Source: Capitulum mitella (Eukaryota > Arthropoda > Thecostraca > Pollicipedomorpha > Pollicipedidae). Taken from it: a DNA stretch of 64,000 nt. Below the pieces are notes generated by a model that saw only the letters and a list, made by a program, of their open reading frames with translations, had not been told where the DNA came from and made no database searches. The first letter of the stretch is position 1; each line of letters begins with the position of its first letter. Of the stretch, positions 4,535 to 62,204 are shown piece by piece. The stretch spans positions 24,727,324 through 24,791,323 of the forward strand of contig CP099839.1 of the NCBI GenBank assembly GCA_030062745.1, given 5' to 3'. The position numbers and the translations under genes are program-made.

Positions 4535-4717
4535 CGAACACGACGAGCAGAATGGCGGTAAGCAGCCAGAACGGCGGCGACTTGCCCAGCAGGTCGTAGC
4601 CGAGGCCGCCGAACGGGTAGCCGATGAGCACGCCAACGGCCATGGCGCCCAGGACGCTGCCCATCACGCGGGACCGTTCGCGCTCGTTCGGGTACAAGTC
4701 AGCCACCGTAGACAGGC
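4535..4717 (-). CDS. VMAT: Transporter exon 4 (TM4-TM6 region, antiporter motif C)
   Basis: Encodes G-LSTVADLYPNERERSRVMG, then SVLGAMAVGVLIGYPFGG and LGYDLLGKSPPFWLLTAILL. The order matches VMAT ADRYPDDEERG...GVLIGPPFGG...VGKTAPFLVLAAL. Acceptor TCCGCAG, donor GTGAGC in phase 1. A TTAA element starts only 57 bp beyond the donor. Copies of the exon start recur in the upstream intron at 70-71 bp spacing. Confidence 0.9.
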
Positions 4718-5563
4718 CTGCGGACAAAGGTTGCTGACGTCAGGGGCTCGCCCTCGTTCGGATACGGGTCGGCCACCGTCGAAGGGCCCGAGAACCCGAG
4801 GCCTGTGACGTAAAATACGAGCACCTTTTCGGGTATAGATTGACGACTGTCAAAAAGTCTCCAAGGGAATCACACGAAGAGGGAAAGCTTCCATTTCATG
4901 ACATGATAGGAAGACGTCGTTCGCTTAAAGGTGAGTTTAGTTCTAATTGCCAATTATGAAGCTGACATAACAGTAGAAGTCATACTCGCTCCAGGGCGCA
5001 GCTAAACATGGCTTAAGTTTAGCACTAATTACCAAACATGAAGTTGATATAACAGTCGGGTGCATACTCGCCTCAGGGAGCAGCTAAACAGGGCTTAGTA
5101 CACATCCGTACCTTCGCCACGCTGCAAGGCGATTCGGCATCCAATCATATTTGGACGGATATGACAAGGTATGGTTAATATAACCGCGCCATATTTACGG
5201 GCCCGAAAGGCCCTAGGCTCTTGACTTCGTGCGGGTCACTTCATGCCATGATACGTGTCTCAAAAAGAAACTGAACGTTATTTTCCGTCATTTCATTAAG
5301 GAGGAGATCAGTTGAAGAAAACTGGGACAGACAGATGAAAGCAAAGATACATCCCGGTCTGATCTGAAGACTGAGCGGAAAGAGTTGAGCAGAATAATGG
5401 ACCAGGATTTCTCTGTGATGGACAGGTACGCTGTCCCACATCTCTCTCTCTCTCTCTCCCTCCCTTCCTCTCTTTCTCTCTCTCTCGCTCTTTCTCTCTC
5501 TCTTTCTCTCTCTCCCTTTCTCTCTCTTTCTCTATCTCTCCCTCTCTCTCTCTCTCTCTCTTT

Positions 5564-5625
<62 letters not shown>

Positions 5626-8600
5626 GCCAGGGCCGATCCCTTTGCAAGACAAGAAAATGACTCCTTGTGTGCGCCAAAGTTTTCGAAAGGACTTTTCTTC
5701 GGGTTACGTGGGAAATGAAAGACCAGCACAAATGTTCGTTCTCATTTGGCTACGAGTTCGACGATGGCACCTTTTCACACGTCCAATCTCGGCCACCATA
5801 TTCTGGAGACATCCCTTCCCGCCCGTACATCTGCAACGCTTAGGTCAGGAATATTCCTCAGTAGTAAACTTAATTCCTGAGCCGTTAAAAACATCCCATT
5901 CCTCTCCGTGAGGCATTTAATGTTCCTGCCATAACTTGGTAGTAGTAAAAGTCAATCGTCTGAAATCATCAGCAAGGGCATATCTCAAACTCCACGTCAT
6001 CATTACTTCTCGACAAGAAATGGTTGTCGAGCCGACTTACTAGATGCAAATCATTGCGCTCCAGGAATGTTTTAGGGTCAAAATCGAAGTTTCATACATT
6101 AACGGATCGTGCAGCTACCAGCAATCGGAGGATCTCAATTCCAAGAAGTTGCACGCTCACATGGGTGGCATCTTGCCACAGATGGCCTAAATCTTGCTTG
6201 TCCTGGATAGCATTTGTGACTTTGTAGCCCAGCACAAATACTGCCACCCCTAGCATCAACAGTTGCTAAACCAAAGGTCTGTATGGCAGAGGGGTGCAAT
6301 TCAACACGTGCGTCCCGCACACGCCAGGTTAAAACTACTGAAACGCAAAAGAGGCACGTATATCGACTGCCACCTATGACATGCTCCTGTCCGCTAATTT
6401 TCAGCATCCCAGCGGTAGCGGTTTTGCGTAATCCAGGTAGAAATGAATCGTGCTCCTTCCTGCTAACGAAGGATCCCAAGTCCAACAGGTTGCACGTACA
6501 AATGGGTGGCATTTTGTCACTGATGCCCCAAATCTTGTATGTCCTCTATGGCGCTTGTGACTTTTTGCCCACCACAAAATGTCGCGCCTCCGGCAACAAA
6601 GGTTCCCAAACCAAAGGCATGAATGGTAAATGGGTACACCCCAGTAAGTATGTCCCACACACACTAGACAGAAGCTATTAACATGCAAGAGGCCACACAT
6701 ATCGAGTGCCACGTATCACGTACATCTACCCGCCAATTTCTAGCATACCAGCAATTTTAGTTTCGTGACGATGAAGTAGGCGTGTTAATCCTGGGCACCT
6801 CGCGCTTCACGTACAGTCTGCACCCCTTTCCGGCCTGAATCCATCAAAACTGATCGTTCAGCTGCCCTTCCGCCCTTCCAAGCCATCGTCGCACCAAACT
6901 GCGGCGTCTGCGTCCCGGCAACTGTCCCCCCCCCCAAAAAAAAAAACACTGGTGTAAAAGAGGCGCAAACGCGCTGCACGTGGCCCGTGGCACCCCGCGT
7001 ATCATATGGGGTTCCATTGGATAGCTCTTGTGATAGTCTATTTACCCACCAAATTTCAGCTGCCTGGGTCATTGTGAAAGGCACTTGGAGGTCCCGAGTC
7101 CAAATCGAAACGCTTGCCTGTGGGCCGCCACGTGGATCGCACGTGGGTGCGACCACAAAAGCATGCACCCGCAAGCGGGGCCGATGTTGCCACCAAGTCT
7201 TGAGTCAACAGCACCCGCCATCATAACGTCTGGCGCCTCCAGCATCAATGGCTTCCAAATCAAAGGCCAAAAGGGCAAAGGGATGGCAGCACGTGCATCC
7301 CGTACACACCAGGCTGAAACTATTGACATGCAATACAGCTACGTATATTGACTGCCCCTGGCCGTCAGTTTTCAGCATTCCAGCGATAGCAGTTTTGCGG
7401 CAATAAAGGAGGGGTAATAATTCGTGCTATGAGTGGCACCATTGTGTGTGCCGACTCGGCAGACAAATTACGGTGCAGGCTTCGAAGCGATTCGTGGCGT
7501 GTGACACGTGCCGCGTGGCGCGAGCCGGACCTCTGCAGAATCAGTTAATCACGTGCTCAGGTCAAACGACGGGCACTGTTGACTCGAAACTTGGTGACAA
7601 CATGGGCTCCATATGTATGCACCTTACGCTTCGCGTACCAGCTGCACCCCGTTTCGGCCTGAGTCAATCGAAATTGATCGTCCAGCTGCCCGTCGGCCTT
7701 GCTAGGCCATCATCGTACCACACTACGCCGTTTGCGTCCCAGCAATAAGCCATTTAGAAGCACGGGGTTATAAAAGAGGCGCACGCGCGCTGCACGTCAC
7801 CCATTGCATCCTGCCCATCATATGGAGTATCTTTGGGTAGTTCTAAAGCTGGTCTAACTACCCAGCAAATTTCAGCCTCCTAGGTGACTGCTCACGGCAC
7901 TCGGAAGACCCTGAGCCAAAGTCGAAACATGGGCCTGTGGATTGCCACGTGGATCGCACGTGGGTGCCGACCACAAAAACGCGCACCTGGAAATGGGGCT
8001 CATGTTGTCACCAAGTTTCGAGTCAGCAGCGTCCGCCGTTTGACCTGAGCACGTGATTAACTGAATTCTGCAGAGGTCCGGCCCGCGCCACGGGGCACGT
8101 GTCACACGCCACTAATCGCTTCGAAGCCTGCACCATAATTTGTCCGCCGAGTCGGCACACCCGATAGTGCCACTTATATCACGATTGGCTAGCGAGTTCG
8201 GGCGCTAGGAGTCCCGGAGCTTGGACATGCACACACAGTGAAAAACGTCTCGATCTGAACTTCAAAGAGTAACCGCCATGCATGAACTCTCGGTATCGGT
8301 AAAAGCGTGCAAAGCACGTTTTTACTTCTTTCGATTTTGAGTTATACGAGTAGCCTTGGGAATCTACTGAAGTTTGATTACCAAACTGCCAATTCAAACA
8401 ATTTGCGCTCCGTAATGATGGTCTTTGAACATTAAATACGTACAGCATTCGTTTCTTTAGGAAAGCAATGGCGCAGCCTGTGGCGTTATCAACATCCTCG
8501 ATGCTAACAGATAGATTATATCCAGGGCCATGAGGTCCAGGGCGATCCGCTGTCGATATAACTGGTGAAATCGGCTCATTGCGCCTGAAGGTAGAACAAG

Positions 8601-11600: not shown

Positions 11601-14600
11601 TCTGTTTTGCTCAGGGGCGGAGCCAGGCAACGTTTTTGGGAGGCACCTCAGGTCATTTTTGGCCATGTTGAGGGTAAAAGGAAAATGTCTGCCAAAAACA
11701 GAGCTTTTGAGATAGAACTTAAAACTTTATATGAGTATATAGCTAAATAGTTGGGCAATGTGCATATGTAATTTTGTTTGTCTGAGGTCACTTTACAAGG
11801 TCAAGTCAAGGTCAAAAGTCAAAATTTGTTTTTTCGCAATAACTTCGGCGCCGTTTTTTCAAATGCCAAACTCGGAATATATATGACGTAGAAAAATGCC
11901 CTCTACTTGTGTACCAAGTTTCAGCTTGATATCAGGTCAGGTCACGGAGCTATGACCTAAAATGTCAGTGCACGTGCCCTATATCGCAAAAGCCAAAAAA
12001 TGAATTTTTTGGAATAGAGTGAATTTAACCGATTAAAAACGTTTACAGATAATATTGAATGCACACGACATCATTCCAGGTGACCCCAAGGTCACTGGAG
12101 GTCATTTAAGGTCAAAGGTCACAAGTTGATCTGAGAAACGTGTGACCATGACAGTTCCCCCTTTTTTATGTCCCTGGCACCGCCTATGCTGACATTATAC
12201 AAACATTGTAATGCGATTTGTACTTCTTTAGCATAACATGACTAGCAGAAGCTAAAAAAGTGTTTTGGCCTCTTTTGTTCATTCCGTTATTGGAAAACTA
12301 ATCCCCCTATTTTTGAAACCCTGTGGACGCCCATGAATTTTCTCAAAATTTGAAATTTGCATACCCATGGTAAAAGCCCTATCCATAATCTCTCGATTCA
12401 TGCCAGTTTCATCGAAATCGGTCCATAAACAACGGAGTTATAAGAAGTCAAAAAGTACCCCCCATTTGACATTTTTGCCCCCCTGTATCCACAAATTTCA
12501 AAATTTTGAAAATTTCTTTTAATCAAAATGTAGTTCACGTCACGGCAAATCGATTGCCGTTTGTTGCGATGAAATCGGATAAGTAGTTCTCGAGATCTCA
12601 GGGGGGGGCCGAATCCGCCCCCCCCCTGCCGGGAATCGGCCATACCGTTTAGCCCTCCGGGAATAGGGTTAAGGAGTTTGCTGTGGCCTTGATCAATACA
12701 ATGTCTAAAAACAATGCTAACGATAAACTGCGAGAACAAGGTTCCACCAAAACAAAATTGCTCCATGGTTATGTACACCTTACTTATTTCTCGCCACGGC
12801 AGGCGCATCAAGTGGCGTCAGAGACCGTCGGCTGGTCACCTCGTATGACCTCTCTTGGCCTCTATGGCCCTTCCCGAACCCTGAAAAATATTCCACTTGC
12901 CACGTTGACCCCGATAACACCTTCAATTTTTCGGTGTTATAGCCCGCTGTGCGCCCGCCGTCTCTGCAGGCGTTGCCATGGTGATGAACGCTCTGAGGTT
13001 GAATAGCCGGCCGCGGGCAGTCGCGCAATAAACGGAGAAAGCGTCGGACCAGGGGCGCAACCAGGATTTTCTTACGTGGAGAGGCCGGAACTCAGTGTGG
13101 CCTGAAATCATACAAAAACCGCCGCTGGGAAGACAATATGCAATGGTTTTCACAAAAATGCGGGCCTAAGGGGGGAGGGGGGAGCCGGGCCCCTTGGCTG
13201 TGCCGGTACGTCGGACGGTGGCGTTCTCACTATCATTTGAAAACTTGACCCTAACTGAACCCAGCTAACCTTTGGTTTAATCTAAAATCGTACTTTGATA
13301 TCCATGGTGTGTTTGGGTATTTCGCTGAGCGGTTTCTCAAATGTAAATTAGCCATGAAAATATATCAGTAAGAAGAAAATGAGGACATTCATTTTGCAAA
13401 TTTACCATTTTGGAACAATGACGTAACCTGACCTCACACACGCCAAAGGTCAAAAGAGGCAACTACTTAAAAGGGGTTGTTTGGCGTGTTATTAGCCATT
13501 GACAATAGCCAAGACACAATTCGAGGAAAAATATAGGTTAGTTGGTGAGCTATTAGGAAAATAATAAATGAACCACTCATTTTGAAATCTTTCGGTATAT
13601 TTTCTTCAACTTTCGGCCAATTTTCAAAAATGTTACAGGTTCCGAGCTTTACTCTTCGAGTTATTTCCAATGGTGCAGTTCAAAATCCAATCCAATGGCT
13701 TTCCTTTCCCTCCGATGCATGGTTCGCGAGTTAGAAGGGCGGGGGGGTGTTCAAACACCACTCGACATGGGGAAGGTGGATCTGGCCAATGGTACGGGAC
13801 GGGTCGACAGAGCGGGACAGCACATCGTCGGAGACGTGAAAGACATCGGCGGCTGGTGGCCGGCTGAACCCTGACCTTGAACTTTTCGCGTGGGACGATG
13901 CTGGACCGATGATGGTCACACTGGCCGCCGGATCCTGTCAAAACGTCTGAAGGTGACAGACGCTGTCGCGGCGAAGACAAGCCGCTGTCACGGCGAGGTC
14001 AACGGCGTCTGTTATAGCAATTTGACGGAACGTATCAGTCCGCTGTGTCAAGCGCTGCGCAGTTCAGTCCGCTGTGTGCGGTCCAACACAAATCAGTTTC
14101 CTGTGTACATACAGTCCAGCGCAGATCAGTCTGATATGCACGGTCGAGCATCGATTATTCCGCCGTGCACCGGACTATTTTGAAATAGCCCGATGGATCG
14201 CATCTATAAAATGAATGATGAGGAGTAAATCGTACTACAGAATTTGTCTGCTATTTGTTTATCAGATTGATTTGTATTGATACGTACGGTCCAACATCAG
14301 TTAGCAATTTGTCTGCAATATGATTGTCAGAATGATTTGCTATGACATGTACGGTTCAGTATTAATTATTCCGCCGTGCACCGGACTGTTTTAAAAAGCC
14401 CGATGGGTCGCATCTAGAAAAAAAATGATAAAGAGTAAATCATATTGCAGAATGCGGGACTCCGAAAACCACAGGGGTGTGTTTAATCTCTTCCCTTCCC
14501 CTCTAATTCGGCTGCACGGAGCCTTTGTGCATCGGGCGTTTCGTTTTGCCGACGCTACGAAAACGATTGATATGTTACAAAGAGGTTCAAGGAACGGTCG

Positions 14601-17600
14601 ACAATGCCGCAACGATACTGCAGAGGTTTCCAGGCAGTGCGTGAGGACATGGTGAAGGAGGCTGAAGACTTTCGCAATGTACTGCATACGGCGCACGCCA
14701 GACAATAACATCGTCTTCTGCAGCTATGCAGAATGATCCCTAGACATGCCGTCGAACCCCGAGACATGACCTGTTACCACGGAGCAGAAGTCTGCAGACT
14801 TCGCCTGCTTCCACGGCAGAACGTTGGCTGCTCTGCACAGTACCTGCCACGGCGATGCAGGAGGATCCCACGCCGTGTACTGCGCGAGCCACCAGCAGTG
14901 AAGAGGCGCCAGATGCCACAGCGAACACTGCCGGCAAAGCAAGGGCAAGCACATGACAAACTGAGTAAGTATCCGTGCGGCGAGAGAGAGAGAGAGAGAG
15001 AGTGAGACGGTCGTATTAGACTGTTGATTTCTCCGCTCGTGGAAAGCAGGGACGTCAAGTGAAATAATTATGGGTAGGCCTGTGGATATGAGTAATTTTT
15101 CTTAGCTTCCTACGAAAGGTTACGTCAGCAATGTATGAGAAAAGGACATTAAATATAGCTGAGGCCCTCCTAAAAGCAGAAGTTTTTTGATGTAGGTTTC
15201 TGTCAGTAATGTTGCATTTTAGCTTCGTCATTTCATCTCTAATGCAAATATTGTTGCACTGGCTGCGTTGGAAGTCAAGGAAGATGAAAGCTCCGTTCAA
15301 TAGTTTTGCTGGATGGAATCAACTTTCAGCTGCGCCAGGAGTTAAACGAGACGAAAAACATGCTTAAAACGGAAATTCACGCCGCAATTACTGGGAAAAA
15401 TCCAACATATGAGTGGGATGTCTAGCATATAATAAAAGCTAGGAACAGCATACCTCAGCTTTGCAAACTCTGAAAACCCCGACAATTTTATCAGCGGTTT
15501 GTCGTCCAATCCGAATGAACGCGAGGAGCGACCTTTCCTTCAACGTCGCGTGCTACACCGTCGCACGGCGCGTCCGATGTAAAACAGTGGGCCGTCAGAG
15601 GTGCCGCCAGTTTGACGGCGGCCGCCGCCGCTGAGAGCGTGCCGCCGTCGGGCGTGTTTTCGGTCGCAGTGTCAACAGCTCGACCGGCTGCGCTCGGTCC
15701 GCGCGCTCCGCCGCCACCGGCTCGAGATTGCGGACCGCTCGAGCGGCAGACGGCGTTAAATCGTCCGTGATTTCAGACGCAGATCCGCCCTCCGCTCCGT
15801 GTCTGGACTGCCTCGGCCTGCGTGGGTGGTATGCGCTGCGTCGAGAAAGCCGAAACCCAAACAGCACTTGCAATATAAGGGACTTCCTTAAGTTTCGTCA
15901 CGAATTTCTCCAGGCTGTTCTGTTCCACTCTCCCTGTAACTCTATTATAGGTGTTGTGTCTATCCTATACCATGAGCGCCAATGCAGTTATTGATATAAC
16001 TATGGCCACGAACACCGTCCCTCAACCCGTTTGATAATTTATAGAGGTCAAGATAGGAATAACCAGGAAACAGTTAATTCTAAGGAACTTATTCGCGTAT
16101 TATTCGAAATTCTGGCGTTCTACTGATGTTATTTTACGTGAACGAGATATCCATTATGATCATGCATACTTTTCGTTTCGTGATGGAAGATACTGTGAAA
16201 GTGATTGATTCCAAGTCTGCCATGCTTATCACAGCAAATCAAGTGGAATCAAATTGTTTATAAGATATATCCTATTACAGGCTCTTCTGGGATGCCTCGT
16301 CATTCCTGAAAAAAAAAACGGGAAAACAGGTATGACATTCCTCCAGAATAACACTAAAGATAAAACATACTAACACACATTTCAACGTCGTGAAACGCGG
16401 CAAGTTTAAACATATCACATAAGCCCACGAATAACAGCTGACTAAAAGCCAGAACGCAAAAAAGACTGGTTAAGAGTGTTGGTGAAATCGAAGATGGTGC
16501 TTGAATGCGATAAGAGTTTGAACGGCGATGGCCGCCGGAAGCAGATTGTTCCACGCTGCTGCCATCCTGAGCGAGAAAGCCCTCCGGGAGGCTGTCAGTC
16601 GGCACCGATGGTGGCAGTTTGGAATGGTTGTTGTTGTTTATTGGTGTTTTCGGGCGCGCCGACTACTCAGGTTATTTTGCGCCCATCACGAGCAGTTTTG
16701 AATGGTGGCCGCGGACAAGCTCGTCTTGCGCACTGATACGCCGGAGCGCCTTCTCAACAGTGGACGGAGGGAAGCCGGGAAGTTCATCGTGAAGTGTATT
16801 GTTCGTTTTCATGTGGCCTCGTTGCCGTACCAGTTCCTCCGTCCGTCGCCAGCCCAGAGATCGTAGCCTTGGAGTGATTCGATGGCCGCGCTTGGTGCCC
16901 GAGACTACACGTGCTGCGAAAGTTATGAGTTTTTGGACGCGATGCAGATGACGCCTGGCCGCATCGTTCTACACGGACAGACAATATCATGCTTGAGGAA
17001 GACTTCATACGAATATCCTTGTTTTCAAAGAAAAGGTTTCAGTCTTTTCAACCTGCCCCCGACTGACGGGGGGTGGGCGGTTGACCGCCACTGAGGCTTT
17101 CCAAAATTGCGAGAGAACAAACGAACGCAGCGCCATTAAACTTTGTGTACCTTCTGCTTGGTCACTTTTACACCTTGTGTTAAGTTTTAAGCTTAGGTCA
17201 AGTCAGGTGTCTGACCTAGATCAGGTGAAGTGGACCTATGTACAAAAAAGTTTAGCGCCCTCTACCTTTTCGCAAAGCATGACATCACAGCAAAACTTTC
17301 AGGGATTAGAGATCTTGATAGATGCAACAAATCTGCTGTCTCATATTTCTCGGATTTTCCCGGGTCATCGGCCTAAAGTCAACCCCATTTTTAAAACAAG
17401 TCGTTTCTCCCGGAATTCCACAGGGTTTTTATGCCGTTTTTAGTGTGGAGTGATGCAAGCATTCATTTGCCGTCAATGGACAAAGTACCAATGATTTTCA
17501 GCCACTGAACTAAGAGCAAGTCATGAATGACTGTCATGAGCCAAAAATGCACCGCCGTCAAAATCGGCGACGAATTACTCAGAACGAGTTCAAAATGGCA

Positions 17601-20600
17601 GAGCTGGTTCGCACATTTGCGAGTAGGTAATGCCAGGAAGTTCAAAAAGTTTCCAAAAATTCGATGTTTCGGAAATGAACAGACAAGATAAAATAAAAAA
17701 AACAAAAAACAAATAAACACAAGAATCATTAAAATAGAGAAATATCACATGAAAAAGCCTACGTCACGAAAATAAAGAGGCGCTAAAATTAGTTCTCGTT
17801 AATTTCAAATCGCGTTCGGCTACGACGCCCGTTGCCAGTGAGCGTGAAAACGCCGTGTCTTTAACTCATCGTTTCGCCGTACATATTAAATAAATCAGAG
17901 AAATTAGGCGCGTATCGGGATCTACGGACTTTTACTGTTCATTGGTACATTTACCTAGACTTTATGAATCACAGCCCTTGAGATCCAGGCTGCTTCTCGG
18001 TTTCATGCAGTCGGCTGAGAGAAAACTTGTATAGGGCGTTAATGGCTTACATATTATCCAAAACTAACAATGAGACTAGTTTCGAGCTCTACCTCCTTGT
18101 AACGAGCTTTTCAACGGTGTGCTTATTTTTATCGTGCGATCAGCGTTCGTGAGTAAGAGGGGGCGGTTGACATCCCAGTCGGGCGTGATGCGCGCCGACC
18201 CCCTGTCGGGCGCTGGTTAAGGTTTTGACGAATTTCAGATATGATGGAAATAGTTTTTTATGGTTCGTTTCGAGCGATTTAAACTGAAACCAGGCCCGGA
18301 GTTTTCAGTTCAGTGTTCTCAAATTGGAAAGTCCCGCAATGCACCGAAGCTCAGAACTTTTCAGATGACAGTCTTTACAGAAGGCTGAAATCCTTGATAT
18401 CTTTTCAGATTTCATTATTCGAACAATAAACGCATCGAACAGCCTGTTGATATGCTGAGGGCTAATTTCAGTGACTACCGTGGTTACCTTTTCTTGTTAA
18501 CCCTCCCCCGACAGGGGGGGGCAGTTGACCGCCCCCCTGAGGTTTTTCTGGGATTGCGAGAGAACGAACAAACACAGAGTCACGAAACTTTGTGTACCTT
18601 TTGCTTCATCATTTTTACACCTTGTGTAAAAGTTTTGACCTCAGGTTAGGTCAGGTGCCTGACCTAGGTCAGGTCAAACAGACCTATATCCAACAAAGTT
18701 TAACGCCCTGTAAGTTTTTCGCAAAACAAGATATCATAGCAATACTTTCAGGAATTAGTGATCTTGATAGATGCAACAAATCTGCTATCTCAGATTCTTC
18801 GGAATTTGCCGGGTCATTGACCTAAGGTCAAGCCCATTTTTAAGACATGTCGTCGTTTTTTTTCTCGAAAATTGACGGAATGTTTCATAACATTTTTAGT
18901 GTGGAGTGAAGTAAACATCTAGACACCGTCATTGGACAAAGTATCAATAACTTCCAGCCATTGACCCGAGGTCAGGTCACGAAAAACTGTAGTGAGCCAA
19001 AATGTAACGTCAGAATCAGCGATGAATTACTCAGAATGGGTAGAAATTGGCAGAACTGACTTGTACAGACGTAAGTAATACCAGGAACCCCAAAAGTTTT
19101 TAAAGATTGCATATTTCGGAAATAAACAAACTCTCGGGAATAACGCTCCGCCAATTTTGTAGATTGGTAACTAATGAATTTCTCCCAAATTTAAGCAGGA
19201 AAAGCCATCACAAGTACCACTAAGATCAATCAAATTTACATGGATAGGCTTTTTTCGCGAAAATAAAGGAACGCTAAAATTAGTTTCCATTAATTTCTTA
19301 CTGCGTACGGCTGCGGCGCACGCCGACAGCCGGCGCGAAAATTGCTGTGTCTTTAACTCAACGTTTCGGCGTATATATTGAACAAATCCGAGAAATTAGA
19401 TGTGTATCGGCATTTGCGGACCTTTACTTGTGCGCTGGTGCCTTTGCCTATGCGTTATTAATCACAGCCCTTGAGATTCAGGCCATTTCTCGGTGTCTCG
19501 GCTACGAGAAAACATACATGGGACGTAAATTGCTTACATATTATTTAAAATTAAAAATGAGACCAGTTGCGAGCCCTACTCGTCACAAGCTTTCCAACGG
19601 TGTGCTTATTTTTATCGTGCGACCAACCGTTCGTAAGTTAGAGGGGGCGGCCAACTGCCCCCCCCCTCCCGAGTCGGGCATGATGGTAACTGACCGACAG
19701 TCGTGCACGGGTTAAAAGGTGAAGGAGGAATTTTTCTCCTTTTTAATTTGATCCAAATGGTGGCTGGGTGATGTGAGGAAACGGAGCCCATGCTGAGCAT
19801 AGCTTGCTGCGAAGACCCCGACCCCTATATCCGATCGAGCAATTCCGGGTAACGGCTAATTTTGTGGCAAAAGTTTAATGTGACTCCAAGAGTGCGACAA
19901 GACCGTCTGGTAGGCAATTTGGCCGTGCTGGCCAGTCGCCGGCCAGTCCGTGGGCTAAATATCGACTGCCGGGACGACTCGAACACGTTTTGCCAGGACG
20001 GCGAGAGCAGCGTTCTAACCAACTGAGCCACCGACCACGGTTTCCAGGAAGTTTCCGTCAGGCCATTTTGGTAAAACATCGGAAACTTAAAAAAGTCGGT
20101 TAGCAATCAATGCACCATTTCCTACATTAAGTCTCAGTTTTTGCCTGGCATGGGTCAGTGTCCGTACGTTATTTCCGGGTGTTTGGCACTATCCTGGGCA
20201 AGGTCTTCCTTGCGTAAGTGTACGTCTAAACGTAATTTCCCGTGCTTTGTAGCTCCTTCACTTGGTCTTGCTACGCCATGAATGGGCCTGTTTCTGTGTT
20301 CTGGCACCAACCGGTGAGAAGCCTCTCTCCCGTCAGCCCGAAAACCCCGGAGAGCGCTCGTGTCACCTCATTCACCACGCTCCCAATCGACAGAGTGTGA
20401 AAAAAGAGCGCTGGTTTGTACAGGTCTTCCCCCAGCCTGTCATCCAAGCTAGCGGATTCGGTCGCTGGGTAAAACCTAACGTTTCCCACCTCTAGGTTTA
20501 CAGTCATCCCTGATCTGTCAGACTAAGGATGCTGCGAACAGCGAAGCCTCTTTGCGGGGGTCAGCGCGTCACAGCAGGATTTGGGGCATGCTTTCGCCGT

Positions 20601-29400: not shown

Positions 29401-29564
29401 TTTAGAACATGGACAGTTTTACTGGAATTTGTCATGATTGCCACTGACACAAAGTGTCCATAGCAGTCGATGTGCTCTAAACCTCAATAATGAATTGACG
29501 TTGATCATCGAACCCTTGAAGAAGTCGGCCCAGAAAGAGCCTGCTCGGAAGCTAGCGTTACAAG
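26125..29564. other. Repeat-rich intergenic DNA
   Basis: Holds a GT/TATA microsatellite (26314-26431), a ~75 bp tandem pair near 26660-26770 and a TA microsatellite (27934-28008). A possible solitary TTAA-element end lies at 27243-27320 (TTAACCCGGCACC followed by a GGGGGTG/CACCCCC hairpin). No gene recognised. Confidence 0.45.
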
Positions 29565-47473: not shown

Positions 47474-50413
47474 CCATAAGCAAATATGACTGGAACTGGC
47501 TTTGTCAACTTGTTAACATTGCCTTTGCTCCAAGGATGCCCTAAGTGCTACATAACATTTGATGACAGTACAGAGACAACTGACTGATATGCAGTGAGAC
47601 ACAAGACTTGACCCAAGACTTTGGACACTTGAGTCCAAGAGGCTTTGTGTCCTAATTCACAAACAAACAGACCAACAAACATCAGTACATAATACTAGCA
47701 GCTGCAGGACAACAAAAGGACACTCATGGAGTGCCTGTTGGTGCAACATTATGCCCAGTACACCTTACCACCATAGCATTATACCCTTTAATGCCATCAT
47801 TAGACCCTTGTGCTGGAGGCACAGTAGATGATGATACAGGCTGTAGGCCAATCCAGGTTGTAGTCAGACTTGGATCTGTCCAACAGAGATTAGGTAGCAT
47901 GTGTAAATAGGTTAGGTCAGGCAGGGTTAGGTTGGATTGGGTTAGGTTAGGTTGGATAGGGTAGATTAGATAAGGTTAGGCTGGCTCAGGTTAGGTTAAG
48001 GTGGATTGAGCTAGGTATTTTGTTTATCTTGTTTATTACTCATTAAACTTGATAATCCTTATTGTCATCAGGCCCAAATACTTCAGCATTGGGAATTGTC
48101 ATTTTTTTATTTGTTACCAGAGAATCCTGGCAGAAACCAAGCAGACAAGTGGCACAGAAGTCAGTGATGAAGGGGATTGGCATTGTTTGCTAATTTTTCA
48201 TATTCTTCATCTTAGAATGATGTGTGGTGCTGAGCTGAATTGCAAGTATTTGCCTTAAAACCATCTGTTGTATGACCTGTATGCCATTTATGCCAGTTTT
48301 TGCCAGAAAATAGGCCCAAGGCGGAAATATGTTGCATGGCCAACAAAAAATTTGTGATGATATGTTACCCTGACCCTAATTGCTGTTCTCAATAAGAAAG
48401 CCATTCACTTAGCCTGTAGCATCCTCTGACCCTACAGGAAAATGTAGAATGTGTTGGCCCAACTTTCAAAACTAGTAGCTGGTTTAACCCAATCTCAGTG
48501 AGCTCCTGCAGTTTATTTAATTATTTCCAATCTTCTCTAGTGACAAGAAGATGAGAATCATGACACAGCTGGGTATAGGGCATGTTGATTGTTTATGTTT
48601 GTTGTGAGGTAGGACATATGGCCTCTTGGGCAGGGTTGGAGATTTAGTTTTTTTCTTGGTGTCAGAGATATAAGTTTTGTTTTTGGAGTACAAAATTTTG
48701 CAAAGAATGATGCTGCTTTACAGTAATATTCTTGATGTAAGGCATTTATGACATTATACCTGCTGCTCACTGAATGGAGATAGAGTCAATGGGATGCAGA
48801 GTTAGAAATTTATCAACAAGGTTATAATGTATATTTTGATGGAGGTGCAAAATAAAACTTTTGGAGTATAAAATGTGCTTGGAACACATATTTCTTGTGT
48901 TCTTAGGTGCCAAAAAAAACATCTTTTCCAGCCTTGCTCTTGGGTTCAGGTATCTGTACCTTCAGTCAATTCTTGTGTCACATTGGGCATCAGTCAGTCA
49001 TGTGTGGAACATGTTGAGCATTTGCTAACTGGCTGTTTTCCTGGAAATGCCTCATCAAGTTATCCTGGATGAGACTGAGGTCCTTTCACAAAGGCCAACA
49101 TTTTACCATCACATTTAATATTAGTTCCCATCCATACCTATTGTGAAGTATTTTGGGCATGATGTTATGTATACATGGATTATGTGTTATTCATGCTCAG
49201 TATTAATAGGGCAATGTAAGGTTGTTTTTAATGCTGTTTTTAGTTTGTAGCATTTAGTTGCAGTTATGTTTACCTTTTGAAAGCATGACTTAGCATTATA
49301 GGTATTTAGCTGTCAGAGTGCAATGACCAATTTATAATTTACCCTGAATGTGTTGAGTGTAATTTAAAATAGTTTCAGGTCCATATGCACCTCAAAAGGA
49401 AGGTAGTTACTCCACCATGTTAAAAGTAGCTGGCTTCCTCATGTTACACTTTAATACTGTGCTGATAACCTGTGTGGTTAAGAAATATGACACAACATTG
49501 AGTATGGTAAAACCAACAAGGTGTCTTGTGGTCCACATGACAAGTGAGTCCTTCTTTGTTTTTGCTTGCACCATTAGTTTGCCTTTATGAATTCCACAAA
49601 GAAAAGTATATTTATTAATATTTAAACATAGGCATCTAAAAGGATTGCAAGTGATTCAACATCACAACCTCAGGTATTATTTGCTGCCATTCTGTGTGGC
49701 TCAAAAACACATGGATAAAAGATGACAAGAGTGCAAACATTTCTTCAGAAATGGTCATATGAGAGAAAGAATTTGCAGTCTAATGCATTTCAAACACAAA
49801 TGCAAAATTTAAAGGATTGGGCTGTCTTCTTCCCAAAACTTTTATGATTCTATGCCCTATGGCCCCTAAACGTATCAGGTTCCAGAATGCACCATGACTG
49901 GGCAGACTGCTGGATTTGGCTTTTCCCCTGCTAGTTGAACTAGGACACACTCAGCCTTTGGCATTGGTCATAAATAGCATGTTTCAAAAGGTTGCTGTCA
50001 TCTTGATACATGTTATTTTAGGGTGGCTTAGATAAGATTAAGTTAGGTTTGGTTATGTTTGGGTTAACTGACTTGTTTAATTGTTTTATGTTCCATAGGC
50101 ATGAAAGGATAGCATATGTATGGTGTTAGGTCCACCATGCTGAGTGAAACAAGTCTTATACTTTTGCATGTATAGTAATTAGCATGCACAGTTTAGCTCA
50201 GTCTTGAGCATGAAAGTCAGTGGTAATGGGAGTTTAAATTGAAAAGTAATGGCAGCCACAGTGTTTCTGTGGTTACCTTGCAGTTTTGTTGCGGAAAATA
50301 CCTCGAAATGGTAATGAACTGCTTTTGGCCCCATTGAATGCATCAGCTTGCTTTTTAACATTTGTGGCCCTTTCAAGAATGCCTGAAGCTTCATCTTGCA
50401 TTTCATCTTGCAG
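47474..50413 (+). other. Presumed KANSL3 intron 1, CpG-depleted
   Basis: Only two CpGs (48322, 49871) from 47474 to 50290. No open frame of note. It ends at acceptor TTTCATCTTGCAG before the ATG exon. The intron assignment depends on an unseen first exon near 47.4 kb. Confidence 0.5.
47905..48005. repeat. Degenerate TTAGG-like interstitial repeat
   Basis: Repeated GGTTAGGTT / GGGTTAGGTTGGAT units, about a dozen imperfect TTAGG-type pentamers. TTAGG is the ancestral arthropod telomere unit. Decayed, so probably an old interstitial tract or simple repeat. Confidence 0.5.
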
Positions 50414-50447
50414 GTAAAACAATTTGGAAGAAGAACAAACTGAAAAA

Positions 50448-53400: not shown

Positions 53401-56400
53401 CGTAGATATTTTCCGTTTTGAAAGATTTGGAAATGATTGTGTCTTGGAAAGTAGGGTTCAACCTTTTTCTTGACGATGTGGGGAGATATTCACATTGTTT
53501 TATTACGTTGAAAAGATGGGCAAAAATGAGTGAGGATATTAAAGAATCGTGGTGCATTGAAGACGCCGGAGCACACAGTTATGAAAAGTAAAGTGACGTT
53601 GAAACTTCAGTATACCTTAACCTCGGCTGTGTGCTCATATCACGTCGAAGTCGGAACTCCATTGAACTTCAACAGACAACTCTACACGGGTGTCGGGCAG
53701 ATTCAGCTAGCAAGACGTTGTGGTCGGGTTTATGGAGCGGAACACTGCCGGCCTCTAACACTGCACGCAGCTCAGGTCCATTCACCGGCCGTTTCGCCTG
53801 CAGCGTCGTCTGCCGAACAACCCTCTTCTGGTGCTGGTGCCCTCGTCGCCGTGCCAGGGTGGCCAGAGCAGCCAGCTGGGTTGCGGCACCACGCGCATGG
53901 ACTTCTGGCACCGCCAGCTCTCCGCGCTCGGAAAGGTCGTGTCCATCAACGTGTTCGAGGGTGAGTGCAGCACGTTGCCTGGGGGAGGGGGTCCTGAGAA
54001 GTAGCGGTTGGAATGGGGAGGTCATTGCTGTCACCGACGCCTTGCACGCTGTCGCGGTCAGTGCAGGTACTTGTCGCAATTGGAGAGCTGGTCGATGGGG
54101 CAGGGTTGTCCAGAGCAGAATGATTTAGGTCACATTGTAGAAAAATTGAGTGCTGCTTATGTAGCCTGCTGTAACATCCCACTTTCTTAGTTTTTTTGCC
54201 AGGTAATTATTTCTTGTGTCGTTTTTCGATGCATCTGAATGCTTTACTAATAAGCCTTATTCACGTGCCTAGATGCCTTAATGCTATTTGATGTCCTGGG
54301 GACATTTTATCAACTCCCCCGTTCTAGTTACCCACGCGTATCTACCCTGGAGCAGTCCTTTGTATGGCTTTTACTGGTCTGGTCTTTCGTATCATAGAGC
54401 TGACCCTTCTTGATCATTATACTGATATGGCCCTCAAGCCAATACCACATGGCAGCTGTGCCGGGCTTGTCCCGTGCTCAAGCGTCGTTGTTGAGAACAG
54501 TTCATGTGACCGGCAGTGTTCCAGTCTTCTGTATGGGGGGGGAAACTCACAGTGGACTTGGAGGTGGAATTTCCGAAGGCTTTTACTGAGCGCACTCCTC
54601 AGTTTCCGTATGTTAGGCTGTGTGATGACTTTGGGCTGAGTGGGCCACTGTGGCGCTAATCGTACGTGTAACGCGAGACTGGGCTAGCTATCTGTGACCT
54701 GTGCCTGCCTGTCTGTTTCTGTTGCTGAACGGAGCTGGCCGTCTCTGACTCCACCCCCGTCCGTTGGTGTGTGCCGCGGTCTCTGCTGACAATTCGCGCC
54801 CCTGTGCCCGCTTGTCTTTGTGTGCTGTAGGGCTGGACTGGCCTGTGACTGTGACCTGTAACCTGTGGCTGGCCGTCCGTGACCCCCCTCGCGTCCGTTT
54901 GTGTGTGCCTCGGGTCTCGGCTGGCAGTCAGCTTCCCTGTGCCGGCATGTCTGCGTCTGACTGGGGACTTGCCTGGCCGTCGGCGACCCTGCGCCCGTCA
55001 TCCTGTCCCGGTGACGGGACTGGCCTGGCCGCCTGTAACCTATGCCCGCTCTCCCGCGTGCCGCAGGCGGCGCTCCGAGCCGCGGCATCACCGTCAGCGA
55101 GAGCCTGTCGCACATCATGGCCATGTGCCGGAGCCAGGTGGCCGAGCTGCGCCGGCCCGGTCGGCCGCTGGTGCTGCTGGGCTGGGGCGCCGGCGGCCTG
55201 GTGGCCGCCCACCTGGCGCTGGTCGAGCCGGTCAGCGCCGTGGTGGCGCTCGGCTTCCCGTGCTGGTCGGCGGCCGGCCGGCGCGGCCAGCCGGACGACC
55301 CGCTGCTCGAGTCGCGCACGCCCGCCCTGCTGGTGGTGGGCCAGTGCGCGGCCGACGCGGCGCCGCACGAGCTCGAGCTGATGCGCGACCGGATGCGCGC
55401 CGAGACAGGCCTGGTGGTGGTCGGCGGCGCCGACCGCCGCCTGCTCGTCAACGGCAGGAAACGGCTGCGCGAGGGGCTCACGCAGAGCATGGTGGACCGC
55501 GCCATCATCGTGAGTGCTAAAATGGGCGGAAGGGGGGCGGACGCATGAGAGGACAGCGTTTGGAAGTGTGCCGTTAGTTCTGAACGCATCTCAATGACTT
55601 CTGTGTGTGTTGCCTCTGACGTCGGGAGTGAAGACATAGGGTGTTTTTTGGGCATTTTTGCTTTGACCTTTGCGTGGCGCGGTTGCCACATCACGGACTT
55701 TTGTGTTTCCTAATGGATGGAGTTGCCGTCTTGGCCGAGGTAAAGTTAGGTTGGTATGGCACGAGCTCGTGTCACGATTGTTGGAGATACTCAACCAGCC
55801 TCTGCACGGGTATTGTTGGTTTTTCACAAGAGATATCGCCGCAGGAGCCCGTGTTGTCTCCCGATCGGTCCCCTCCGTCTGACGGCGTGTCCCGTGTCGC
55901 CCGCAGGAGGAGATCTCCGAGTTCCTGACGGGCATCCTGATGCAGCAGCTGGATGGCACGCGGCCGCTGTTCCCGCGGCTGCCGACGCCGCCGCTCTGCC
56001 GGGAGGATGCCGTCCTCAAGAACCTGGCGCGCGAGAGGCGCCGTAAGCCGGCCGGTCACGCTGCCGCCGCCGCTGTCAGACAGAGGCCGTCCAGGCCGGC
56101 GAGGAGCGGTGCGTACAGAGCGAGGGATGGCGTGGCGAGCCGCAGCTCTGCAGCTCGGGAAGGTGGTTGCTTCGTTTGTCGTGCGCGCGAAATGTTTGGG
56201 TGCTGGTCGAGGGATGTTTATGTGACCCTCGTAGAAATCGCCCACGCCTTTTCTTTGAGAACTTTGACCTCTTGCTCCTGTGAGAAGTCGTTTGCTGTTT
56301 TAATGTGGGAAACCTGATGAATAAGGGGCGGATGACACTGCCATTATTCCAGTACTAAGCAGGATATGGTCAAATTTCCACGTAGCCAAACTCAGTTGGT

Positions 56401-58928
56401 ATTGCAGAGCACCCATGTCTGCTAGTGTCCATCGACAGGTGGACATTGTCTACCTGACGATGGTCATGAAACGAAAAAATGCCCTTTTCGTCACATCAGA
56501 ATGCTTGTTGTAACCGTTTCGCCTTGCGCTTGCCGCTATCTCCGTTGGTACTGTCCTGTATCCAGGCTCTCCCCGTCAATGACGTTACGTTTGTGCTGGC
56601 CCCAGGGCGCGCCAAGGGTCGACAGCGGACGGTGAGGTCGCGAGAGCAGCCGCCGCCTCCCGCCGGCGACGACTCGCTGTCGGAGCCCATCATCGACCTG
56701 ATCCAGGAGGCAGACGCCGAGACGCCCGAACCCGAGCCGGAGCCGGAGCCGGAGCCAGAGCCGGAGCCGGAGCCGGAGCAGGAGCGGGGACGGGAACCGG
56801 AGCCGCGCCCGCCGGAGGCCGAGTTCGGCCCGGTGGCGGTCGGCCCCGCCGCAGCTGCTGCCGCCGCCTCCGCCGTCGCTGCTACGTCGCCGCTCAAGAT
56901 ACTCACCACGCCGCCAGTCAAGGTGAGAGATCCTGTGAGTCTCTCTGGAAGAAGAAATCAGGTAGGCTTTTCTGTCGAGTGGTCGTGGTAGGCATTTTTT
57001 GTGGCGGGTGCAAAGGATACGTGAACGACGCTGGGCTGTTTGATTGTTTTGCACTCAGTTGTTGATGAATTGCAAAGAAATCACAACATGCCCATGACGT
57101 CTCGATCCCTGCGATAACGGCCTGCATTGTACATCACGCCGGTAACTGTTGCTAGTATGATGACACCGCCTGCCACGCGACGCTCTCTGCCGCTACTAGT
57201 GTGTGCGTGACACCGTCTGCCGCTGCTGGTGTGTCCGTGACGCTGTCTGCCGCTATTAGTGTGTCCTCGACGCCGTCTGCCGCTGCCGGTGTATCCGTGA
57301 CGCCGTCTGCCGCTGCTGTTATGTCCGTGACGCCGTCTGCCGCTGCCGGTGCATTTGTGATGTCATCTGCCGCTGCTGTGTCCTTGACGCCGTCTGTCGC
57401 GGCCGGTGTATCTGTGACACTGTCTGCTGTTGTGTCCGTGACGCCGTCTCCCGTTGTTGGTGTATCCGTGGCGCCGTCTACCGCTGCCGGTGTATCCGTG
57501 ACGCCGTCAGCCGCTGCGGGTCTGCGTATGACACCATTTCCCGCCGCCAGCCCGCGACTCTGGCCCTGTCGTTCGGGGGAGCTCGGCATCCTCTGTCGTC
57601 GACTTGCGGCCCGGCTCGACACTACCTGTCGATGCCGGCCGGTCGGGGCCGACTCGGCCCGACGCCGGCCGGCGCGGCGCGACAGCACCTGTCGGCGGTC
57701 GGCGGGCCCGTCCGCCACCCGGGCGGCCGGCTCAAGGTCACACACACTCTGGACGGGCTGCCCAGACGCGGCCGAGGTGCGTTGCCGCCGGCCCGGGTGC
57801 AGGCGCTGATTTCTGCGTGTGTCGGCTGCGGCGGAGGCCGGAAACGGTTGGTTGGTCGAGGCGATCTTCTTCCGTTCGTGAGACCGTTTGGGGTTGATTT
57901 TTTCCGTGTTTGCGTCTGGCCATTTGTCGGCCCGTCGGGTGAGTGAGACCGGCTGCCTGCGGCCCGACGTGAGCGCGTCGCAGTGTTGGCCATCGCCGCG
58001 CTGAAGCGGGCTGAGCAGTGAGGTCACGCTCCGTCCTCCGCCGCAGGCCGCGCTCGGACGCCGCGCTACGGCGTGTCGCGGGCCTTCGCCACGTCCGCAG
58101 CCATGCTGGGCTCGTCCCGCTTCCTGACGCCGGTCACCTCGGCCGCCGCGTCCGCCCCGGCCGCTCCCGGCGGCCGTGTCAGGTGAGAGCGCGCGTCGAC
58201 GAACGCGCTCCGGCAATTTCCCTGTGACGGCCGGGCTTCATTAGTATCGCTTTTTGGTGGCCATGGGGACCTCGCTGTCGTCGCCTGCGAAGCCTGTTTG
58301 TCTGGTCCCTCGTGGGGCCAGTGCAGCACGGACGGTTTTGTTTTTAATTTGAAACAATCTCGTATCAACCTCGCTTGAGGTGCATCCCTCCCTCGTTCTG
58401 ATTCTTGGTGAACTTGCTTTGGAGTGACCTTATGATAACGGCGCTTTTTGTCTTTCGTGACGGTCATCGTTAACTCGTCCCTCGGCCGCTCGTATAGACG
58501 GGATCGGCCTGACGCGATAGCTCGCACTGACGCCGTCTCGGTCCTTCGCAGCCGGCGACTCGGCCGGCCAGCAGTTGGTGTACGTGCGCCCGCCGGCGGC
58601 GGCGGCGTCCTCCTCGGCCGCCGACCGTCTGCTGCTGCTGCCGGGCGGCCGCTCGCTGCTGGCCGGCCGGCAGGTGCTGGTGTCGCGCGGCCGCGCGCGC
58701 ACCGTCACCTACGTGCCGGCCGGGCGGCCAGGCCCGCGGCCGGCCGGTCCGCCGGTGCCGCGGCCGGCCGAGCACGAGTACGCGGCGGGCGTGGCGCCGC
58801 CGACCCGCGTCGCCGGCCCGGCCGGCCGCGGCCAGCGCGCCGCCCTGCAGGCGCAGCGCGGCCGGCAGCCGGCGGCCGGCGACGGCGCCCAGCCGGCCGC
58901 CGCCCCTGCGCCGCTGCACGCCGAGTGA
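50448..58928 (+). CDS. KANSL3: KANSL3 / NSL3, KAT8 regulatory NSL complex subunit 3
   Basis: Subunit of the nuclear NSL histone acetyltransferase complex (MOF/KAT8). Coding exons: 50448-50567, 51145-51275, 51814-51966, 52555-52816, 53167-53313, 53804-53960, 55067-55509, 55907-56042, 56606-56922, 57551-57776, 58047-about 58175 and 58552-58928, giving ~865 aa (human 904). Signatures: LDHMYSRPWGW, PIDVETVDEP, SAWSPAQRQLLRRLLAAL, RPWDPAAHLVGHHKL and WHRQLSALGKVVSINVFEG. The alpha/beta-hydrolase-like core has PLVLLGWGAGGLVAAHLALV, PALLVVGQ, LVVVGGADRRL and EGLTQSMVDRAI. The nucleophile elbow reads GWGAG with no Ser, so it is probably non-enzymatic, like human GWNTG. The C-terminal third is low complexity (EP repeats, Ala/Pro/Arg). 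Only the junction into the last exon is unsettled: the best donor, CAG|GTGAGA at 58182, is one nucleotide out of phase with the protein-like last frame, whereas a weak GTGTCA donor after 58175 fits. An AG at 50412-50413 just before the ATG exon implies an upstream non-coding exon. Confidence 0.94.
54675..55066 (+). repeat. Degenerate ~160-185 bp tandem repeat before a KANSL3 acceptor
   Basis: Blocks of the type GACTGGCCTG...CTGTAACCTRTG recur near 54675, 54833 and 55017, with GTGTGTGCCKCGG-type blocks between. The last unit runs into the acceptor GTGCCGCAG at 55066. All within the intron between exons 6 and 7. Confidence 0.45.
57160..57560 (+). repeat. 30 bp minisatellite running into the exon 10 acceptor of KANSL3
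   Basis: About 13 units of the type ACACCGTCTGCCGCTGCTGG plus TGTGTCCGTG, some shortened. Because 30 is a multiple of three it reads openly on both strands (SAAAGVSVTP on plus, DTPAAADGVT on minus). The last diverged unit contains the acceptor CCGCCGCCAG at 57550. Intronic in my model. Confidence 0.7.
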
Positions 58929-59245
58929 AGAGGTGCGGGGGGGATAACGGATCGTTGTGGCTGTTGATGGCAGACGGGATCCGGTGGTGTATGTTAAAAG
59001 GTGATTCGTACGTTGTGTGAATCTGGTGTTACCGCATCTGCTTTCCGCCTGTTAGGCAGGTCAGGCTGAGAGTTTGTGCCATTATGCGCCCTCTTGTCGG
59101 ATGTGCGTTTGTAGTTAAACATCCCGTAGCCGCATCTGAGAACCATCAGTGTAAAACAGCACAGCTTTTTCATGTCATCGAATGATCGGAAGTATGCTTC
59201 TCGTATTGGGGCTTTTGCTGAAAAAAGAAAAAACAGATCGTTTCC

Positions 59246-59251
59246 TTTATT
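59246..59251 (-). other. Polyadenylation signal of RPIA
   Basis: AATAAA on the minus strand, 391 bp past the RPIA stop codon. No AATAAA was found on the plus strand between the KANSL3 stop (58928) and 59640, so the KANSL3 3' end is unresolved and the two 3' UTRs may overlap. Confidence 0.5.
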
Positions 59252-59641
59252 ACATATATTTGCACTGTGCACTGTTGCTTGGAATACGAGCGTGCACATG
59301 TGCTTAGTGACGAAAGCACGAAGCAAAAGAAGTGCGACTTCGACACCACAGCCATTCGCAGATCAGTCGTGTAACATAATAGTCTTCATATAAAGGGATG
59401 CATGGATAACCGATATAAACGGATACAACCATAACCGTGGAAGCGCTGACACCACCCTCGCTGTCAGTCATCGGCGACTCTTTGGTTCATCACGCGATCG
59501 GTAGCTCGGGGCTGAGTACTGCGTTGCGCACCGAGACCCGTCGGCCGGATCTCGTCCCCAGTCGTCCGGGACGCCGTGCCTGGATCTGGCCCGGATCTCG
59601 GAGCCTCGGTCCGGCCCGGATCTCGGGGGTCCGCCGTCCGC

Positions 59642-62204
59642 TCAGAGCTCGGCGGTGCCGTCCGGCCCGCCGAAGATGACGCAGTCGGCCATGTCCACGA
59701 ACAGGCCGGTCTCGACCACGCCTGAAGGGGGAGGGCCGGCATCAGAGGCGGCCGGCCGACAGCGATGGCCTCCGCGTCGACGTGACGTGCAAACCGTAGG
59801 GCATCAATCATTCGCGACTCGCGAGGCGATGAAATGCTACACGAAGTAGACACGTTTCCACTGAAAGCAACAGCTAGTATCCCTCCACGTTTACACAGAA
59901 AACAGAGTCAGACCGGCGCAACCCCAGCGACGCCAGCAAAACACGCAGCCATCATAGAGCCACACGACGCATCACCTGGCTGCCCGGCCACCCACCTGGG
60001 ATCATCTTCAGGTCAACGCTCAGCTTCTTCCAATCGTGCTCCTCCTCCGGGAACTGCCAGTCCAGGAGGAAGTTGCCGTTGTCTGTCACCACTGGGCCCT
60101 GCAGGTACGGGGATCATCAGCCGCGGGCCGGAATAACCAAGACGGGTATTTCTACATCTTTTCTACATCTCCTTTTTGGCACTTTCTTCGCCTCTTCCTC
60201 TACGAGGAAAGCTACCTCCTAACAAAAAGAGGCCAAGCATTTCGCATGATCACGGCCATCGCGGATTTACGTGCGGCCAAACAACTACTGTGTTCGCAAC
60301 TACGAAAGCACAAGATTTGCGCAGTTTTCAGGAGTTCAACACGGTTAATGGCATCCAAAGGTAAAAACAAACGCATGAGGTTTACGCAGAATGAAACGAA
60401 ATCCATGGGAGCGAAAACGCTCACACCGACAAATGCATACAAAACAAATTACTGAGCAAGACGAATCTAGACAGTCCAACCTGACAGACCCACATGGCCC
60501 CACAATTCACATGCAACTGCTGCTTCGTCCCCCCACCCCCCTCGGCCCAGGACGTACCGCCTTCTGCTTAGCCATGCGCAGCACGGTCTGACCACCGTGC
60601 CGGCCCTCAATGGTCTGCTGCACGGGCACGTAGGCCATCGGGATCACCTCGATCGGAACCCCCTTCTTCCAAGTGTCGCCCAGCCGCTCCGAGCGCTTGC
60701 TGGAACGGCCCCGTGACAGCGATCAGAGGCCGGTTGTTTATTCAGATCACGGAGGGGTGGCACAAGAGGACGCGGAATGGCTGGGGCACAGACCAAGCTG
60801 CGATAGTGGATGTGGTCAGGATGAGGAAGTGGCAGAGGTCGGAGGTAAGGGGACAGCAGAAGTAGGAAGAAAAGGGAAAGCGCATATCGGTAGCCAGATG
60901 ATGTTACAAGTCGGAGGAAGGGAATGGTACTCAGAGGCCTGAAATGTAGGCTAGGAGTCTGGCAGTAATGGAAGTCTCAATGTTGAGGCAAAAATGGGGA
61001 CTGGTGAGTCCTAAAAGTCGGCTGGCGACTTCGGAAGCATACTCAAATTTGCTCTCTCGGTACGAGTCAGATCTCAGTCCCAAATCGTCAGCTGCAGCTC
61101 TCCTAGGAGTAACGACTAGCCGACACAGCACGTCACCTGAAGTCCACCCGACATCGCAGCTCACCTGAGGTCAGAGAGCAGTCCACGCGGCAGCTCAGTG
61201 GAAACCATCGCCCAGACGACGTGGAGACTCACTTGAGGTCATCGGTTAGTCGACAGCTCACCCGTGCGCCACACACCAACCAGCATCTCTCCTGGGGTCC
61301 GCAACCGGCTGGCAGTTCACCTGAGGTCAGCACCAGCTAGCATCCCACCTAATGTCCGCGACCCGACCTGAAGCCAGCGACCAGCCGACACAACAGCTCA
61401 CCTGAGGTCAGCGATGACGACGAAGCGCTGGGCGGCGGCGGCTACGATCTTCTCCTGCGTCAGGCAGCCGCCGCCGCCCTTGATGCAGACGCGCTGGCGG
61501 TCCACCTCGTCGGCGCCGTCGATCGCCAGGTGGAGGCGCGGGCACTGGTCGAGCTCGGCCAGCGGCAGGCCGCGCGCCGCCACCAGCTGGCGCGCCTGGA
61601 ACGACGTCGGCACGCACTGCACCTGCAGGCGCTCAGCGGCCACCCGCTCCGCTGTCGGGGGAGGAGCCGAGTCAGACGCGACGGAAGCGCCGTACGACTA
61701 AAGTCATGTCTATGTGTTCGTGTTTGGAACAGGAAGCAAATTTTATGCAACGAGAATGATAGGGCAGTCGAGTTATCCAAGGCGAAAGTTGGCAACCTAG
61801 CATCCTGCAAACCTGGTTCTCACCGGTACTTGCTCATTCATGACATAATAAGCCCATTTGGTGATGGTATAGAGGTCTCCCAAAAGGCGCTTGAACCGGC
61901 TTATTGAATGTTTTGCTATCGGCAAGACAAGGCACCGCCGTTTCGTAACCCGATTCTAATCGTCCTTTCAACTGATGATTGCCTGGAGGAGTTGGCTGGC
62001 AAACGTTCCGTGCTAGGAACGTTTGTCATTACGACCATGGTGGTAACTTATAAACTAAGCTGGCTGTTGCAACAGCCAGCTAAGTTTCATGCTTAATTCA
62101 AAAGCATGCAAATCGCAGGATGAACCCAATCTCCAAATCTCACCGAGTCTGTCGACAGCATAAACAATGGTTGATCCACTGCCTATGCCGATCTTCTGTT
62201 TGTC
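59642..62204 (-). CDS. RPIA: RPIA: ribose-5-phosphate isomerase A, lacking first exon(s)
   Basis: Interconverts ribose-5-phosphate and ribulose-5-phosphate in the non-oxidative pentose phosphate pathway (cytosolic). Exons: 62204-62144, 61651-61402, 60699-60558, 60098-59996 and 59721-59642, all phase-consistent. Motifs in order: phosphate loop [63 protein letters not shown] carrying the catalytic Glu; [54 protein letters not shown]; stop. It is shorter at the C-terminus than human (no REKPFC tail). The N-terminal part before DKQK was not found up to 64000 and probably lies beyond the window; an in-frame ATG at 62222 would give a shortened start. The donor at 61402 sits inside a ~29 bp minisatellite. 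The gene converges on KANSL3. Confidence 0.94.
61110..61430 (-). repeat. ~29 bp minisatellite containing the RPIA exon 3 donor
   Basis: Plus-strand blocks CAGCTCACCTGAGGTCAGCG recur at 28-29 bp multiples; donor-equivalent positions are near 61137, 61165, 61233, 61262, 61292, 61321, 61349 and the real one at 61402. On the minus strand at least three extra copies read as credible donors (CTCAG|GTGAGC, CTCAA|GTGAGT, CTCAG|GTGAAC). Confidence 0.65.

Follow-up and report, generated by a model that had tools for sequence, protein, structure and literature searches.

Tandem copies of splice junctions in introns of an SLC18-like gene and of RPIA

Do introns lengthen through a process that acts at their splice junctions, or are junctions included only occasionally in duplications that arise throughout the introns? 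The question is raised by the window studied here (the whole analysed stretch of 64,000 nt), since the first-pass annotation described four or five junctions in three adjacent genes, each touched by a tandem repeat of local origin, and proposed tandem duplication at junctions as a recurring process of intron growth.

Gene models and junctions crossed by repeats

The window consists of animal-looking DNA, with introns, GC-rich exons and animal genes, and holds four modelled genes: SLC18/VMAT-like, KCTD9-like, KANSL3-like and RPIA. The models were built from conserved peptides and exon joining, and their junctions rest on reading frame, splice consensus and protein matches. All 44 modelled junctions of the four genes are GT-AG, and the joined reading frames are open, with a single stop close to the end of the KANSL3-like model. 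The SLC18 (VMAT/VAChT-like) transporter gene lies on the minus strand (exons 23935-23824, 22788-22222, 14960-14844 and 4717-4535); its protein has the Pfam domain MFS_1 and matches XlVMAT2 (8xiu, E=1.7e-31), and no end of the gene was found inside the window. The KCTD9-like gene, also on the minus strand (45448-38015, seven exons, 13 junctions), carries KHA, BTB_2 and pentapeptide domains, and the name KCTD9 is our assumption from these domains. The KANSL3-like gene, whose eight modelled exons run from 52555 onwards, is on the plus strand and has Abhydrolase_11 and KANSL3_1st matches, both barely at the cut-off. RPIA, on the minus strand (62204-59645, five exons, first donor at 62144), has a Rib_5-P_isom_A domain and matches ribose-5-phosphate isomerase 1xtz (E=1.6e-54). 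The three genes counted as adjacent at first pass are not all neighbours, as the KCTD9-like gene (38015-45448) sits between the SLC18-like and KANSL3-like genes.

For each of the 44 junctions, a 60-base window centred on the junction was compared with its own 400-base flanks by local alignment. The null distribution was obtained from 1000 dinucleotide shuffles of the flanks of each junction, and the flanks of junctions in other genes served as a second control; a first pass had used 30 shuffles and 43 junctions, the first RPIA donor being left out. Three of the 44 junctions scored higher than every one of their 1000 shuffles: the SLC18-like acceptors 22788 (score 29, shuffle maximum 17; other-gene flanks as good, 0/37) and 4717 (18.5 against a maximum of 18, a thin margin; 0/37), and the RPIA donor 61402 (24 against 18.5; 0/35). 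None of the remaining 41 exceeded all 1000 shuffles. The next-best junctions, 53167, 44974 and 42310, were equalled by 18, 23 and 29 of the 1000 shuffles, respectively, about what is expected from 44 tests, and no significant result was obtained at any of the 13 KCTD9-like junctions.

Consequently, the earlier list of five repeat-touched junctions holds in part: repeats cross 22788, 4717 and 61402, one only abuts 57551, and 55067 drops out as a junction-crossing case, its window being equalled by 939/1000 shuffles. Both of the latter are acceptors of the KANSL3-like gene. At 57551 the junction-centred window is matched by 363/1000 shuffles. A 30-bp array in the adjoining intron (57179-57548, plus strand) was delimited by Tandem Repeats Finder (TRF; 57179-57521) and by scored windows, and the final unit extends to 57548 (score 32 in window 57491-57550; maximum of 500 shuffles, 19.5), so that the array ends two bases before the AG without crossing the junction. 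Upstream of 55067, a degenerate intronic repeat found by the window scan (54700-54980, plus strand) is real (score 21 in the window 54947-55006, where no shuffle exceeds 19), and it stops short of the junction: in the 60 bases that immediately precede the acceptor the score is 17, within the range of 500 shuffles (mean 12.1, maximum 18.5).

At acceptor 22788 there are three head-to-tail copies with a period of 70 bp, read on the minus strand. Copy 1 (22764-22833) contains the authentic acceptor and the start of exon 2, whose first base is 22788, and the XlVMAT2 match runs across this junction. Copy 2 (22834-22903), in intron 1, aligns without gaps at shift 70 (score 31) and retains the acceptor AG, while copy 3 (22904-22973), also in intron 1 (match 22951-22912, score 19.5), has lost it to AT. 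A weak fourth match farther upstream (23231-23207, score 13.5) was left out of the copy count. The exon side of copy 1 encodes VPIIPAYL, aligned to VPIIPSYL in VMAT2. In copy 2 the acceptor is CTTCAG followed by TTCCG across the boundary, and the exon-derived part would read VPMVPAYL. Copies 1 and 2 are identical at 21/25 bases on the exon side and at 29/44 (15/44 different) on the intron side. Exon-side differences amount to 4/25 between copies 1 and 2, 6/25 between 1 and 3 and 8/25 between 2 and 3; the constrained exon copy is the short branch, in what are small numbers. Small as these numbers are, the copies are not recent. Splicing to the acceptor of copy 2, at 22858, is predicted to add 70 bases and to cause a frameshift that ends in a stop at 22451, with 229 bases of the exon still to follow.

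Acceptor 4717 is represented by two copies 70 bp apart on the minus strand, one of them intronic. The first (4671-4745) holds the authentic acceptor and the start of exon 4, with 4717 as first exon base and a protein match across the junction; the second (4741-4815), 70 bp upstream in intron 3, has its acceptor AG changed to GG. The alignment is carried by the exon side, where 33/42 bases are identical at shift 70, and is weak on the intron side (7/33 at shift 70, 14/33 at shift 71). The 70-base period is common to both SLC18-like acceptor duplications, and a reason for this was not found.

The third case is a donor. RPIA exon 2 (61402-61651, minus strand; exon model and protein match) ends at 61402, and the start of intron 2 (61090-61401, minus strand) is occupied by a degenerate array of donor-bearing units of about 30 bp, recognised by alignment and by eye. 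The repeated unit consists of the exon end GCTGACCTCAG followed by the donor GTGAGCTG. Between 61374 and 61113 the alignment returns seven matches within the intron; inspection by eye resolves about ten degenerate units, each about 30 bases long, which together occupy the initial ~310 bases of this 702-base intron. One unit (61157-61177, minus strand; match 61177-61144, score 24) has an exact 9-base donor, with the boundary equivalent after 61165, and three further donor-like sites, after 61321, 61262 and 61233, agree at 8/9 bases. The first 330 bases of the intron thus contain four sites of at least 8/9, while 500 shuffles give a mean of 0.24 and a maximum of 3, and the other introns (30,062 bases) contain 0.12 such sites per 330 bases and no 9/9 site. 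At 7/9 the array has five sites, inside the shuffle range (maximum 6). On average, pairs of units share 46% of their core bases and 34% of their flanking bases; these figures are rough, since the register was chosen by eye and leaves units 1, 2 and 7 misaligned. If any of five donor copies were used, translation is predicted to meet a TGA at the end of the authentic exon, 77-261 bases short of the new junction. The plus strand of the unit was also considered as a series of AGGTCA motifs, which we take to be nuclear-receptor half-sites, and this candidate was set aside because the conserved exon end, read on the opposite strand, gives just these bases.

Standard repeat searches do not report these three cases. 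TRF gave no row in 61050-61450 or 22700-23050 at score 30 and none at 4717 at score 50, because the copies are too degenerate, and the three crossed junctions are absent from a self-BLASTN of the window (cut-offs: E no greater than 1e-3, score at least 24). Surveys based on TRF would miss events such as those at 22788 and 61402, and would consequently undercount them.

Repeat frequency at junctions compared with intron interiors

A process tied to junctions should be visible as an excess of repeats there. In a scan of the window every 10 bases (score at least 17, z at least 5 from 30 shuffles, match over the centre), 217/2852 intron-interior positions qualify (7.6%), and 85/812 in introns under 1.2 kb. 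With 3/44 junctions (6.8%, 95% interval 1.4-18.7%), there is no junction excess over intron interiors in the window. For this junction count, exact-centre scores were preferred to the 10-base grid, which catches 4717 only at the loosest of four thresholds and 2/44 junctions at the other three. When the junction set is shifted circularly through genic sequence, 66-82% of the shifts yield at least as many hits as observed (P 0.66-0.82 over the four thresholds), and repeat coverage does not rise towards junctions but peaks 240-480 bases away. Exon interiors are no freer of repeats by this test (22/342 positions at score 17 and z 5, 53/342 at the loosest threshold); the listed exon hits fall in KANSL3-like exons and include a coding six-base repeat, GAGCCG (56734-56805, plus strand), that yields an EPEPEP stretch in the protein. 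Ten of 44 junctions would have been significant (P=0.0015), and therefore a three-fold excess at junctions is unlikely, while a two-fold excess is compatible with the 44 junctions of one window. The first-pass annotation had itself named equal repeat frequency at junctions and in intron interiors as the outcome that speaks against its growth process, and within the window this is the outcome obtained.

The observations are very probably explained by background tandem duplication and minisatellite turnover in the introns of the window, with the three junctions included by chance. Similar repeats occur in intron interiors across the window, as the scan list documents. Two points count against this explanation: two of the three cases share a gene and a 70-bp period, which is not obviously chance, and four intronic donor-like sites of at least 8/9 persist in RPIA and could be kept. 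If exon-intron borders were instead hot spots of short tandem duplication, introns would grow mainly from their ends. Three independent crossing repeats in two genes and one array abutting an acceptor are in keeping with this, and donor and acceptor motifs may themselves act as short near-repeats. The interior frequency, the shifted junction sets, the distance bins, which are flat near junctions, and the 13 KCTD9-like junctions without a significant score all oppose it, and we regard junction-favoured duplication as distinctly unlikely. Still smaller is the probability that the repeats reflect chance similarity or mis-modelled junctions. Chance similarity is true of 55067 and of the junction-centred window at 57551, and the margin at 4717 is thin; at the three crossed junctions, however, no shuffle and none of 35-37 other-gene flanks does as well, and the joined exons are open and match solved protein chains across all three, which makes this reading very improbable.

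The RPIA array may also be read as a set of functional decoy 5' splice sites that tune RPIA output through unproductive splicing. Maintained decoys would bind U1 and shunt transcripts into decayed mRNA with an immediate stop, array length would set output, and such arrays would be found at other genes too; this whole scheme, drawn from sequence, has a very small probability. The excess of sites of at least 8/9 over shuffles, the 9/9 site absent from the other introns and the immediate TGA predicted for all five copies tested are what such decoys would show, and in human ABCA7 splicing to the donor of the next unit downstream is on record (PMC5954066). However, the frame in which the authentic donor is read, and not the array, accounts for the stop, the 7/9 count lies inside the shuffle range, and the units are degenerate, with a core-flank difference in identity that shared origin could also give. 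A decoy function for the array is consequently very unlikely, and background duplication remains the preferred explanation for RPIA as well.

Origin of the copies and known counterparts

Under background duplication, an exon end and the adjoining intron segment would have been duplicated head to tail at 22788, 4717 and 61402. The copy beside the exon would have kept its coding and splicing roles, while the other copies fell in the intron, lengthened it and drifted. Across the junctions, the exon side of each authentic copy agrees with a VMAT2 or ribose-5-phosphate isomerase chain. Because these bases are conserved in protein, the repeats probably started from the exon end, with the intron copies descending from it. 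It is therefore likely, judging from the alignments, that exon ends were copied into introns at three junctions. In RPIA intron 2, repeated rounds of duplication would have produced about ten donor-site copies. The mutation itself may be replication slippage or unequal exchange, and the extra splice sites are probably neutral by-products. Intact extra copies, if used, are predicted to lead to a frameshift or a stop. Transcripts with such premature stops should be open to nonsense-mediated decay, and those using the extra sites may be removed in this way.

Of the effects proposed at first pass, the one on intron length is borne out: the copies suggest additions of ~140 bases at 22788, ~70 at 4717 and ~300 at 61402. 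Splice-site redundancy is borne out less evenly, being present in the AG of copy 2 at 22788 and in four RPIA donors of at least 8/9, and absent where the AG was lost, in copy 3 at 22788 and in the intronic copy at 4717. Intron gain is not shown, and no new intron was seen in the window. Background tandem duplication can thus lengthen introns from exon ends, leaving copies of splice sites behind.

The repeats at 22788, 4717 and 61402 are head-to-tail copies that include a splice junction, of the kind described for human ABCA7 and CBS, and extra copies retaining a splice signal are found in copy 2 at 22788 and in the RPIA array. The cases in the window are an older, more degenerate counterpart of these human repeats, and the kind is already in print. 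In ABCA7 intron 18, a 25-bp VNTR starts at the exon 18 donor and carries a donor GT in each unit; on record are retention of one unit, a frameshift and premature stop upon use of the downstream unit's donor, a range of ~12 to 427 units between people and a link to expression and exon skipping (PMC5954066). The RPIA array is similarly a short tandem unit with a donor derived from the exon end, and it lengthens the intron. Unlike the young, variable ABCA7 array, it has about ten degenerate units and is known from one assembly.

Two CBS variants are comparable (PMC2630376). By its coordinates, the 31-bp VNTR c.1444_1467+7(16_21) takes in 24 bases of coding sequence and 7 of intron, and the RPIA 61402 unit likewise combines an exon end with a donor; the CBS repeat has 16-21 units of a constant 31 bp, whereas the RPIA units are irregular and strongly diverged. 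CBS 844ins68 is a 68-bp duplication of an intron/exon junction with two competing splice sites, of which the distal one is used (PMC2630376). The 70-bp junction copies at 22788 and 4717 resemble it, but 844ins68 is a recent polymorphism with near-identical copies, while those at 22788 and 4717 are 72-84% identical or less and the AG at 4717 is lost. Tandem genomic duplication as a route of intron gain is reviewed in PMC3443670. In potato RdRp, a tandem duplication across an intron-exon boundary gives rise to a new intron (PMC4974935); the tandem duplications in the window also hold splice signals, but here existing introns are lengthened.

Other repeats and elements in the window

Further repeats were noted during the analysis. 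Intron 2 of the SLC18-like gene contains two direct copies of ~1.2 kb (17043-18220 and 18492-19715, 73% identical), possibly an old mobile element, and intron 3 contains diverged modules of 300-430 bases (6101-8037; shifts 341 and 824, 71-74% identical). A dispersed repeat with similar translations (4253-4477, 12401-12817 and 41127-41306, minus strand) lies in or near introns of two genes. A broken run of open reading frames at 29556-31734 on the plus strand (29556-30440, 30388-30792 and 31006-31734), with a weak match to DUF4371 that falls below the cut-off, presumably represents a decayed hAT-type transposase. An interstitial, degenerate TAGGT/TTAGG repeat, which hints at the group to which the host belongs, occupies 47908-47998, a unit which we take to be of the arthropod telomere type.
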